Positions 1,331-9,118 of a stretch of DNA of 42,295 nucleotides are shown here, piece by piece (positions within the stretch are counted from its first letter, which is position 1; each line of letters opens with the position of its first letter). The stretch lies in assembly GCA_024644465.1 (NCBI GenBank), contig JAHEKY010000018.1:1-42295 (forward strand). Direction: 5' to 3'. A model generated the notes under the pieces. That model searched no databases and was not told where the DNA came from. It was given only the letters and a program-made list of their open reading frames with translations. Source of the stretch: Ilumatobacteraceae bacterium. GTDB taxonomy: Bacteria > Actinomycetota > Acidimicrobiia > Acidimicrobiales > Ilumatobacteraceae. The position numbers were made by a program, and so were the translations under genes.

Positions 1331-3232
1331 TCAGCCGATCATGCCTCGGACTCGAAGTGTGTCGATCACCGCTTCGGCAGCCTGCTCCGCAGTCATCGCC
1401 GTCGTGTCGATGTGGACCTCGGGTGCCTCCGGCTCCTCGTAGGGCGAGTCGATGCCGGTGAAGTTCGTCAGTTCTCCGGCGCGCGCCTTCGCGTAGAGAC
1501 CCTTCGGGTCGCGCTCCTCGGCGACGTCGAGCGGTGTGTCGACGTGCACCTCGATGAACTCACCGTCCTCGACGCGATCGCGGGCGAGCCGCCGCTCGGC
1601 ACGGAACGGTGAGATGAACGACACGAGGACGACGATGCCGGCGTCGACCATCAACGCCGACACTTCGGCGATGCGGCGGATGTTCTCGACGCGATCTGCG
1701 TCGGTGAAGCCGAGGTCGCGGTTGAGGCCGTGCCGCACGTTGTCGCCGTCGAGGAGGTAGGTCCGCACACCGAGGGCGTGCAGCTTCGCCTCGACGATGT
1801 TCGCGATCGTCGACTTGCCCGAACCGGACAGGCCGGTGAACCAGACGACGCCCGGCTGCTGGCCGTTGAGCTCGGCGCGGGCGGACTTGTCGACGCGCAC
1901 GTCCTGCCAATGGATGTTGTGCGAACGGCGCAGGGCGAAGTGCAGCAACCCGGCGCCGACCGTGTTCTGCGTCAGCTTGTCGATGATCACGAAGCCGCCG
2001 GTGTCGCGGTTCGTCGTGTACGGGTCGAACGGGATCGCACGGTCGAGGCTGATGTTGCAGACGCCGATCTCGTTCAGCTCCAGCGTGTGGGCGGCGAGGT
2101 GGTCGAGGTTGTTCACGTCGACCCGGTACTTCGGGTTGGCGATCGTGACACCGACCGTGCGCGTCCCGATCTTCATCAGGTACGGCCGCCCCGGGAGCAT
2201 CTCGTCTTCGTGCATCCACACGACGTGCGCCTCGAACTGGTCGGCCACCTCGGCGGGCGCATCGGCGGCACAGATCAGGTCACCCCGGCTGGCGTCGATC
2301 TCGTCGGCCAGCGTGAGCGTCACCGACTGGCCGGCGACCGCCTCGTCGAGGTCACCGTCGAACGTCACGATCCGATCGATCTTGCTGGTCGTGCCGGCGG
2401 GCAGCACCCGGATCGAGTCGCCCGGTCGCACCATTCCGCCGACGACGCGCCCGGAGAATCCGCGGAAGTCCAGGTTCGGACGGTTGACCCACTGCACGGG
2501 CATCCGGAACGGCGACGTCTTCGCCTCGTCGTCGACCGGGACGGTCTCGAGGTAGCCCATCAGCGTCGGGCCGTGGTACCACGGCGTGTGCCCGCTCGGC
2601 TCGGTGATGTTGTCGCCCTTCAACGCGGAGACCGGGATGAACGTCACGTGTTCCAGCCCGATCCGGCCCGCGAAGTCGAGGTACTCGGCGCAGATCGCGT
2701 CGTAGATCTCGTGGCTGTAGTCGACGAGGTCCATCTTGTTGATCGCCACCACGACGTGCTTGATGCCGAGCAGCGACACGAGATAGCTGTGCCGGCGGGT
2801 CTGGGTCAGCACGCCCTTGCGCGCATCGACCATCAGCACCGCGGCGTCGGCGGTGGAGGCGCCGGTCACCATGTTGCGGGTGTACTGCTCGTGGCCGGGC
2901 GTGTCCGCCACGATGAACTTGCGACGCTCGGTCGAGAAGAAACGGTACGCGACGTCGATCGTGATCCCCTGCTCGCGTTCGGCGGTCAGGCCGTCGAGCA
3001 GGAGGGCGAAGTCGAGGTCGGTGCCCTGCGTGCCCACCTTCGCGGAGTCCGCTTCCAGCTGGGCGAGGTGGTCCTCGAAGACGAGGTGCGTCTCGTAGAG
3101 CAGTCGCCCGATCAGCGTGCTCTTGCCGTCGTCGACGCTGCCGCAGGTGATGAACCGCAGCAGGCTCTTGTACTGGTGCGACGTCAGGTACTCGTCGATG
3201 TCGCTGGCGATCAGATCAGATGCGTGGGCCAT
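1331..3232 (-). CDS. cysNC: Bifunctional sulfate adenylyltransferase subunit 1 / APS kinase CysNC
   Basis: A 633-residue cytoplasmic fusion enzyme. The N-terminal EF-Tu-like GTPase has G1 GSVDDGKST (31-39), G3 DTPGH (110-114) and G4 NKMD (165-168). It drives APS synthesis by the CysD partner. The C-terminal APS kinase starts near residue 462, with P-loop GLSGSGKS (about 467-474), LDGDN and the DPKGLY segment, and makes PAPS. The length fits CysNC fusions of actinobacteria. The ATG at 3232 overlaps the stop of an upstream 18-codon mini-ORF as TGATG, which suggests translational coupling. cysD lies immediately upstream and a DASS transporter immediately downstream. Identification is secure. Confidence 0.97.
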
Positions 3233-6901: not shown

Positions 6902-6997
6902 CGTCGACCTCGTCTCGCTGGAGCCATCCGCCGTTCGTATCAAGCCGGGGCCCACCATGTTGAGTCGGGCCGCCGGACCGCGGTGCGCCGACCGTCC

Positions 6998-7009: not shown

Positions 7010-7039
7010 ATGAGCCCGATCGCGGAGCAGCCCCGGTGA
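7010..7039 (+). CDS. Nine-codon leader ORF overlapping the redoxin start
   Basis: The ATG at 7010 opens a frame encoding MSPIAEQPR. Its TGA stop overlaps the GTG start of the selenoprotein-type redoxin (GTGA at 7036-7039). A -10 box lies 6 nt before the ATG, so the mRNA may begin here without a 5' UTR. Terminating ribosomes could then reinitiate on the redoxin GTG, which has only a weak upstream GGAG. The peptide itself probably has no function. Confidence 0.35.
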   Translation: MSPIAEQPR

Positions 7040-7584
7040 GCGCGGACGCCGCCCGCCCGCTCGAGGTCGGCGACGAGCTGTTGCGCCTCGAGTTCGTCGA
7101 CGGGCGGGGCGGCACGTGGACGACCGACGCGCACCGGGCGACGGGTCGACCACTGCTGCTGATCCTGCACCGCCACCTCGCTTGACTGCCGTGCCAGGAG
7201 CACGTGCTCGCCGTGCGCGGGCGCATCGAGGAATTCGGTGACACCCAGGTCGCGATCGTCACGTTCACCGACCCGGCGCACCTCGACGCGTACCGGGCGC
7301 ACCTCGACGTGCCGTTCCCGATCGTCACCGATGTCGACCGTCGCCTCTATCGTGCCCTCGGTCTCGCCCGTGGCACGCGTCGCCAGGTCTGGTCGTTCGG
7401 CACGCTGAAGATGTACGCCCAGCTGCTCCGACAGGGTCGCCGCCTGCGGCCCGCGACCGATGACATCCGCCAGCTCGGCGCAGACGTCGTCGTCGACCGA
7501 GACGGTCGGATCGTCGCGATCTTCCGCCCGCCGACCCCGGATGCTCGACCCGGTGTCGACGAGCTGCTCGCGGCCCTCGCGTGA
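7036..7584 (+). CDS. Probable selenoprotein: PRXL2/AhpC-TSA-like redoxin with in-frame UGA (Sec50)
   Basis: A 182-codon thioredoxin-fold protein read through one in-frame TGA at 7183-7185. Upstream codons give a normal N-terminus (LEVGDELLRLEFVDG, then RPLLLILHRHLA). Downstream the same frame gives LPCQEHVLAVRGRIEEFG and then typical AhpC-TSA_2 segments (FPIVTDVDRRLYRALGL, LGADVVVDRDGRIVAIF). TGA falls exactly at the first position of the redox motif, giving U-L-P-C where homologues have CxxC. Both sides are intact and in one frame, so selenocysteine is more likely than a nonsense mutation. The role would be thiol peroxidase or disulfide redox chemistry. GTG 7036 overlaps a leader ORF stop. 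The stop abuts the convergent gene with no gap. sel genes are not in this window. Confidence 0.8.
7213..7226 (+). promoter_or_regulatory. Candidate bacterial SECIS hairpin downstream of the UGA
   Basis: A GTGCG/CGCAT stem (one G-U pair) encloses a CGGG loop that begins 32 nt after the UGA at 7183-7185. Bacterial SECIS elements are short hairpins in the coding region roughly 16-37 nt downstream, with a G among the first loop bases, so geometry fits. Alternative hairpins overlap (7190-7204 and 7198-7209), and GC-rich DNA forms such stems by chance. Confidence is low. Confidence 0.25.
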
Positions 7585-8961
7585 TCAGCGCGAGTTGCCG
7601 GACGGCAACAGCGTCGCGGCGGGAGCGCCCCCACTGAACACGGTGATGTCGCCGTCCTCGGACACCTTGAGCACCACGAGCGCGACATGCGACAGCGACT
7701 TCGCCGCAGCCGTGCGCGCACCTTCGTGCTGGCTGTCCGAGCTGGCGATGATCGCACCGTACGCGAGCAACCGGCCGTCCCGGTCGAGCACGGTCGCGCC
7801 ATCGAGCTCACCGAGGCGTACGAGCGTCTGGACGTCGAGGTCGTTGCCTTCGATCAGATGGTGCAGACGCGTCTCCGGGCGCATCGCTGCCACGTCGACC
7901 TCGTCGCGCAGGTCGTAGCGATCCTTCGGTGCGACGATCGTGTCGATGTCTGCGGCGTCGGCCACGATCGCGAAGATCGCACCGCCGGACTTGACCGACA
8001 CGATCAGCGCCGCGCCGACGATCAGGTCGACCGCGGGCCCGCCACCGATCGTGTCCCCGATCGAACGGGCCAACCACAAGGGGAACGCCGTCCAGTGCTC
8101 GCTGCGCCGGATGACGAGCGGTTGCCCGTCGACGAAGGCCCAGATACTCCGATCCTCCCGCAGGAAGAATCCGATCCCGCCCAGCTGGCGCGTCGCGAGC
8201 GCGACGAGCGAACCGCTGTCGACGAACTCCCGCTCGACGGCCTCGAGCGGGCGAGCCGTCGGGTGGATGCGGTCGAGGTGGTGCTCCTGCAACTCCGTCC
8301 GGGCGCGGCCGTCCTGGTCGACGACCAAGACCGAGCGTCGCCCGTCGAACAGCAGCGGGCTGCGTTTCGCGTCGCGCAGCCCGGCCGGGTAGGCCACTTC
8401 GAGGCGCGGCTCGTCCGGGAGCGCGTCGGTGATCACGACACCGTGGGTGAGGCTGTGTGACTCGACACGGGTGCCACTCAACTCGATCAGGTACTCGAGC
8501 GTCGCGGCCAGCAGGTCGCGCGGTGCGCACTGCAGATGGTTCCAGCCCTCGTGGTGGCTCAACAGCTCGACGATCACCATGTCGCGCAGCGCCCGCTGCA
8601 TCGCCGGAGACGGCGCTCCCTCGTCGAGCGTCGTCGACCGAAATCTGCCCGCCGCGCGCAGTGCCGCCTCCGGCAGCGCGAGCAACGCGTCGGGGACGGC
8701 TGCGACGTGCGCGGCCGAACCCGCGCCGAAACTGATCGACAACGTCGTCGTCCAGCCGTCGATCAGGTTCGCCGACGCGGACACGACCGTCGTGCCCTCG
8801 GCACTCACGGATTCGTCCCGACCGGCGTCGACGGCCGCCGGCACGCGAGGGGCATGGCGGAGATCGATCTGCGCATTGACGAGCAGCTCACGGATGAACG
8901 CAGCGACCGCCTCGCCGACGGGATCGGACGGAGCGGTGCGGTCGGCCGCGACGTCGGTCAT
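7585..8961 (-). CDS. DisA_N (diadenylate cyclase-fold) domain protein with altered RHR motif
   Basis: A 458-residue protein. The last roughly 90 residues resemble the DAC/DisA_N domain: LGELDGATVLDRDGRLLAYGAII carries the DGA motif, and GARTAAAKSLSHVALVVLKVSEDG aligns with the second motif region. Canonical c-di-AMP synthases have RHR after the GA; here it reads RTA, so catalysis by the usual route is doubtful. The domain could be a c-di-AMP or nucleotide sensor, or a divergent cyclase. The 360 N-terminal residues have no membrane segment and no family I recognise. I chose ATG 8961; an ATG at 9051 is open but adds unrelated sequence. The 3' end abuts the selenoprotein gene tail to tail. Confidence 0.65.
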   Translation of the reverse strand: MTDVAADRTAPSDPVGEAVAAFIRELLVNAQIDLRHAPRVPAAVDAGRDESVSAEGTTVVSASANLIDGWTTTLSISFGAGSAAHVAAVPDALLALPEAALRAAGRFRSTTLDEGAPSPAMQRALRDMVIVELLSHHEGWNHLQCAPRDLLAATLEYLIELSGTRVESHSLTHGVVITDALPDEPRLEVAYPAGLRDAKRSPLLFDGRRSVLVVDQDGRARTELQEHHLDRIHPTARPLEAVEREFVDSGSLVALATRQLGGIGFFLREDRSIWAFVDGQPLVIRRSEHWTAFPLWLARSIGDTIGGGPAVDLIVGAALIVSVKSGGAIFAIVADAADIDTIVAPKDRYDLRDEVDVAAMRPETRLHHLIEGNDLDVQTLVRLGELDGATVLDRDGRLLAYGAIIASSDSQHEGARTAAAKSLSHVALVVLKVSEDGDITVFSGGAPAATLLPSGNSR

Positions 8962-9118
8962 CGCGGCATTCTCGCACGCTCCGGTTCGCCACCGCCGCTC
9001 CGCATCAGCCGTTCCGTCGAGGCCGTGGTGCGACCCGCGACGCTTCGGCACCTCTCACCATCTCCGTTTCACCACGTCCGATGTCGCTTTTCACCGCGAA
9101 CTCGGGCACCGTTGTCTG

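Follow-up and report, generated by a model that had tools for sequence, protein, structure and literature searches.

How should a stop codon be understood when it stands within what otherwise resembles a single, conserved gene? That question is raised by a redoxin-like gene found at positions 7036 to 7584 (plus strand) of the window, the window being the whole stretch of 42,295 nucleotides that was analysed and one of the contigs of the 3.37-Mb draft genome (195 contigs, 82.9% complete) of an Ilumatobacteraceae bacterium. The interrupting TGA almost certainly is read as an active-site selenocysteine (Sec), as would be the case as well in nearly all of the gene's close relatives. More fully, we place at about 0.96 the probability that this is a genuine selenoprotein gene, with hairpin-directed insertion of Sec at UGA 7183-7185, and with a product that would be a SelL-related redoxin making use of Sec50/Cys53 chemistry. 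The selenoprotein interpretation, offered previously by a sequence-only reading of the window, is supported by results of computation, i.e., the reading frame itself, Sec machinery in the host genome, conservation of the TGA along with its exchange for Cys codons in some relatives, and a downstream hairpin that covaries. What is added thereby is a well-supported selenoprotein branch, one which is split in two by plain gene calling, in an order for which a SelA match is seen in 183 of 298 sampled genomes.

The interrupted reading frame

The frame extends from a GTG at 7036 to a TGA at 7582-7584, i.e., 182 codons with a single internal TGA, that of codon 50 (7183-7185), just as the sequence-only reading had described. 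The local context is ILHRHLA-U-LPCQEH, so that a full-length product would be 182 aa long with Sec as residue 50. Downstream of the preceding in-frame stop (TGA 6961-6963), no ATG, GTG, or TTG other than GTG 7036 occurs as far as position 7038, and a GGAG at 7024-7027, 8 nt ahead of that GTG, is a possible ribosome-binding site. At the other end, a minus-strand ORF (7585-9051) meets the redoxin stop codon tail to tail, the frame thus ending, as claimed, exactly at the neighbouring gene.

With the TGA taken as a residue, the translation matches Pfam AhpC-TSA_2 at 45.1 bits (above the gathering cut-off of 27), AhpC-TSA at 37.6 bits (cut-off 26), and Redoxin at 28.5 bits (cut-off 26.6). The AhpC-TSA_2 (PRXL2-like) match begins at residue 68, C-terminal to the active-site motif. 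In the redoxin frame, ORF calling (table 11, at least 80 aa) yields only 7204-7584, which is a 126-aa product with a GTG start and the same truncated call, from near 7204, that had been anticipated. If the UGA is read as Sec, then ordinary gene calling loses part of a real protein.

The codon at position 50

Homologues were found in 40 of 298 genomes of the order (E <= 1e-15, the window's own genome counted), every one of the 40 with exactly one internal TGA, which is more than chance would give. Thirty of the 40 were fetched, and in all of these the TGA is the same active-site codon, giving the U in HRHxxULPC. The search query carried Cys at the Sec position, so there was no bias towards TGA. 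A sample of the phylum gave matches in 23 of 396 genomes (E <= 1e-12), two of them genomes already counted in the order set, and all 24 matches possess one TGA, with one match possessing also a TAA.

A larger set of 98 loci combines 18 from the phylum with the best 80 of 86 loci from a pattern scan of species genomes. Here the Sec codon is TGA in 97 and TGC in one, the latter (L125) from an Acidobacteria bin. No further stop occurs within the aligned stretch in 96 of the 98, the exceptions being L060, which has a TAA, and L136, in which there is a second TGA. As contigs are partly shared between this set and the 30 fetched sequences, or within the 98, distinct 63-nt segments were counted over both sets: there are 106, with TGA in 105 and TGC in 1. 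Residues flanking the TGA are conserved on both sides (alignments A2, 21 rows, and A3, 48 rows). The partner residue in U-L-P-C, Cys53 (TGC 7192-7194), is invariant in both alignments, while in L136, which lies outside of A3, its column is occupied by a Sec codon.

Cys does take the place of Sec among more distant relatives. When 296 genomes of the phylum were searched with the profile NF040769, 41 of them gave a total of 45 matches, 36 with one TGA and 9 with none, and of those 9 there are 8 with TGC or TGT at the Sec column and one which is without the active-site part. The in-frame UGA thus aligns to Sec (UGA) codons or to Cys codons in homologues. The sequence-only reading had posited U-L-P-C where homologues have C-x-x-C. 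The placement of the TGA at the first motif position stands; close relatives, however, are mostly U, with C-x-x-C the minority. As a TGA-form gene and selA are both present in a named strain, Ilumatobacter nonamiensis YM16-303, the claim is open to bench testing.

Selenocysteine machinery

The sequence-only reading had been made to depend on the host possessing selA, selB, selC, and selD, and all were found in the draft genome. The matches are 396.3 bits for selA (cut-off 267.9), 286.2 bits for selB (cut-off 242.25), which lies 39 nt from selA, and 65.1 bits for a tRNA-Sec with anticodon tca (Rfam cut-off 47), called as well by ARAGORN as SeC(tca). The selD is partial, consisting of the first two thirds of the gene and ending at a contig edge. 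This selD, too, is a Sec gene: the fragment (L010:3-608, minus strand; G000:C169) has an in-frame TGA within G-U-G-C-K, the usual Sec place of SelD.

Across the order, 181 of the 183 SelA matches are above the family cut-off. Presence of selA is seen in 38 of 40 genomes with the redoxin versus 145 of 258 without it (one-sided Fisher p 2.7e-7, uncorrected for relatedness or draft quality). The two redoxin genomes of the order in which no selA match was found, G018 and G063, both have a tRNA-Sec above cut-off. There is no selA match in the genome of L125, the TGC form, and there is one in all four of the TGA genomes that were run beside it (L117, L127, L136, and L061). Among phylum genomes with NF040769 matches, SelA is found in 37 of 41, with no match in G419, which has a Cys form, nor in G365, G464, and G548, which have TGA forms; 7 of 8 Cys-form genomes possess selA. 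As there are TGA genomes without a selA match and Cys-form genomes with selA, the link between form and machinery is not a strict one.

A hairpin downstream of the UGA

Within the coding sequence at 7204-7224 is a SECIS-like hairpin, with an 8-bp stem (7204-7211 pairing with 7217-7224) and the loop CGUGC (7212-7216), beginning, as judged from individual folds, 21 nt past the U of the UGA. It falls inside of 7186-7235, where a SECIS had been proposed to lie. The stem was picked from individual folds and then tested by covariation, by codon-preserving shuffling, and with a thinned set of sequences.

Among 30 sequences, 78.3% of stem cells are paired, with 21 cells double-changed, and 5 of the 8 pairs are changed on both sides in some sequence, though pairs 22-42 and 24-40 form in just 16 and 14 of the 30, respectively. 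The covariation score is 0.306 versus 0.030 to 0.090 for slid versions of the stem, controls which are somewhat favourable to the stem because it was chosen on the same sequences. None of 500 shuffles reached that score, and 47 of 500 reached five both-side-changed pairs. In the thinned set (60 sequences, <90% identity), 75.4% of cells are paired versus 21.5 to 61.2% when slid, and there are 44 double-changed paired cells versus 9 to 22.

Shuffling of synonymous codons, leaving the protein unchanged, provides a further control. In the ULPC branch (n=76) the mean energy is -8.54 kcal/mol versus -5.41 kcal/mol following shuffling, with only 25 of the 76 sequences individually below 5%, and with differences of means at the other printed offsets of -0.81 to +0.88. 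Comparison thus supports a SECIS just 3' of the UGA in the ULPC branch, whereas single-sequence folding is not significant: the window's own 53-nt stretch folds no better than its shuffles, 136 of 200 of which did as well (z 0.53). RNAalifold on its own keeps 3 pairs only, and Rfam, run over the whole window, has 0 matches at gathering. In the RHAGULIC branch (n=16) no hairpin was found at this position (-2.61 versus -2.35 in the shuffled control), and for the 13 sequences belonging to neither branch the difference is small (-5.25 versus -3.88). In L125, a single Cys-form sequence, nothing stable folds at this place (-1.1 kcal/mol).

Alternatives to selenocysteine

An in-frame TGA in a draft assembly of 195 contigs and 82.9% completeness has the look of a nonsense mutation or a miscall, i.e., of a pseudogene or a sequencing error. 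Such damage is scarcely to be reconciled, however, with TGA at the same codon in 97 of 98 loci and a lone internal TGA in every one of the 40 homologues from the order, with 96 of 98 loci being free of other stops over the aligned stretch, or with conserved residues to either side, and it is given next to no weight. Slightly more room, but very little, is left for the UGA as a true stop separating two products, a short N-terminal peptide and the 126-aa protein. An ORF does start at GTG 7204, but that GTG sits within the hairpin stem, the conserved catalytic motif would be split between the products, and in Cys-bearing relatives the frame is continuous across the site.

That the sequence demands read-through as such would be satisfied equally were the UGA read as some residue other than Sec, whether by a reassigned code or by plain suppression. 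Against this, the genome holds selA, selB, tRNA-Sec(tca), and selD; the redoxin gene itself terminates on TGA; the selD has its own TGA within GUGCK, presumably the usual Sec place of that protein; and the alternative residue among relatives is Cys. Non-Sec read-through is accordingly regarded as extremely improbable. Pseudogene, sequencing error, and code reassignment are rejected, that is, on the basis of the conserved TGA, the Sec machinery, and the gene's own TGA stop.

Family placement

The top NCBIfam match of the window's protein is NF040769, SelL-related redox protein (E 1.8e-33), at 115.6 bits, which is under the curated cut-off of 120 bits, and the protein is therefore filed as close kin of this family rather than as a member. 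The kinship is visible in that 21 of 21 aligned relatives match the profile at E <= 0.001, and in that the profile's matches in the phylum mostly possess one TGA as well (36 of 45). The difference is one of motif: HRHxxULPC in the window versus members of the RHxGUxFC type, with the two lying on opposite sides of a supported branch (SH-aLRT 96). This is from a quick, midpoint-rooted tree of 88 rows, comprising a hand-picked 48 of the 80 species loci plus other sets, with a few rows present twice. In it, the window adjoins an Ilumatobacter bin (67% identity), and the side to which both belong comprises 63 rows, all but one of them Sec. NF040769-like members are on the other side, where Sec rows number 17 and Cys rows 8, and the tree requires a minimum of five exchanges between Sec and Cys. 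With Sec in 62 of 63 rows, the window's side lends itself well to the question of why Sec has not been exchanged for Cys.

Motif variants were seen here and there. Three of the 8 Cys forms (L149, L150, and L153) have CxCG instead of CxxC. L154 (G211:C58), on a very long branch, retains the TGA, but its second Cys is replaced by Pro (ULFP). At L161 (G322:C130:55825-57494) two SelL-related redoxin genes stand side by side, and both have TGA at the Sec codon. The two TGA codons of L136, a Myxococcales homologue, lie at L136:5043-5054 and give UxxU, presumably the motif of SelL.

Selenoprotein L has Sec at the first motif position, and its motif is UxxU, which forms a diselenide. The protein of the window is UxxC (7183-7194) and by that motif is set apart. 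Otherwise SelL is similar by description, being given in an ocean survey (PMC2398784) as a Prx-like selenoprotein ('a Prx-like protein') of eukaryotes and prokaryotes. That survey has several Prx-like UxxC families in addition to SelL. A 2026 review (PMC13188914) puts the number of prokaryotic selenoprotein families or subfamilies at 119, and its Table 1 includes a Prx-like thiol:disulfide oxidoreductase (PF00578; UxxC, UxxU) along with a Redoxin family protein (PF08534; UxxC), entries which, as compared by description, share with the present protein the Pfam domains, UxxC, and one Sec. The main text of that review mentions neither NF040769 nor PF13911 nor 'Acidimicrob'. Among the selenoproteins counted in PMC5029168 there is a 'ULPU-containing selenoprotein', and a literature search for that protein brought up this one paper. 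Also on record are an AhpC from Blastococcus, an actinobacterium, in which Sec is encoded by UAG (PMC5330540), and SELENOL, as a listed name only (PMC7539508). At listing level, literature on Acidimicrobi- selenoproteins and on Ilumatobacter selenocysteine held nothing on this protein.

The window's protein is best described, from its sequence, as a Sec redoxin of known kind, belonging to an almost wholly Sec-type UxxC branch that may be new relative to the catalogued families as these are described. A stronger version is favoured by somewhat better than even odds: HRHxxULPC proteins may constitute a distinct, uncatalogued subfamily of Acidimicrobiia, plus a few neighbours, hardly ever found in a Cys form, with its own type of SECIS, and hidden from annotation. 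Such a SECIS would have an 8-bp stem and a loop that is mostly CGUGC or CGUGA, and the hiding, if real, would be due to members being cut at the UGA.

Proposed chemistry

Sec-tRNA(Sec) is the product of SelA, for which SelD provides the selenophosphate, with SelB acting in Sec decoding. Here SelB and Sec-tRNA(Sec) would decode UGA 7183-7185 as Sec under the direction of the 7204-7224 hairpin, after which translation would continue past the UGA to the TGA at 7582. The product should possess a thioredoxin fold, going by profile match, and be of the SelL-related/AhpC-TSA_2 kind. Searching the PDB with the window's protein as a single sequence gave nothing useful, but a profile of 48 relatives, over its first 100 positions, matches BCP-type peroxiredoxins as well as ResA. 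In the alignment to ResA (PDB 2h1b), the two Cys residues of CEPC are matched by U50 and C53, the window's protein thus differing in having Sec in place of Cys. Since Sec50 corresponds to the first Cys in that CxxC, it is most likely the attacking residue. Most likely, that is, this is an enzyme of thiol:disulfide type, UxxC, in which Sec50 would attack a disulfide or peroxide, Cys53 would resolve through a Se-S bond, and that bond would be reduced by a thioredoxin-type reductant. From Sec insertion itself through to the catalytic cycle, the class of substrate, and the type of reductant, these are steps that we infer. Candidates for the rest of the active site are R46, H47, H56, D99, Y105, D143, Q146, and R171, all of them invariant in alignment A3.

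A variant of the chemistry, though not of the selenoprotein reading, would have the protein as a classical peroxiredoxin, with Cys53 peroxidatic and Sec50 a helper. The best match of the profile in the PDB is in fact a Prx, and in the alignments to 2ywn and 2cx3, C53 lies on the Cys of FTQVC and FSPVC, which we take to be the peroxidatic Cys, with U50 on the Thr or Ser three residues earlier. Peroxiredoxins keep T/S-x-x-C, however, and this is missing from the window's protein, which is U-L-P-C; the UxxC also aligns to the CxxC of ResA, and a near-invariant Sec at position 50 argues for 50 as the catalytic residue. The peroxiredoxin variant consequently is judged unlikely, something like a one-in-five proposition, and attack by Sec50 followed by resolution by Cys53 is preferred.

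Gene neighbourhood

Neighbouring ORFs of at least 110 codons were compared over 81 loci, and this comparison revealed no conserved partner gene alongside the redoxin. That is, no cluster was present in more than 15 of the 81 other than the redoxin and one minus-strand cluster. The latter is seen in 38 of the 81, mostly overlying the redoxin, and is taken to be its antisense shadow. The convergent neighbour at 7585-9051 (minus strand) has a weak, sub-threshold DisA/DAC match, 22.7 bits versus a cut-off of 27. Elsewhere in the window, 1331-3232 (minus strand) encodes an elongation-factor-type GTPase fused to an APS kinase, which is presumably the domain layout of the bifunctional sulfate adenylyltransferase CysN-CysC.
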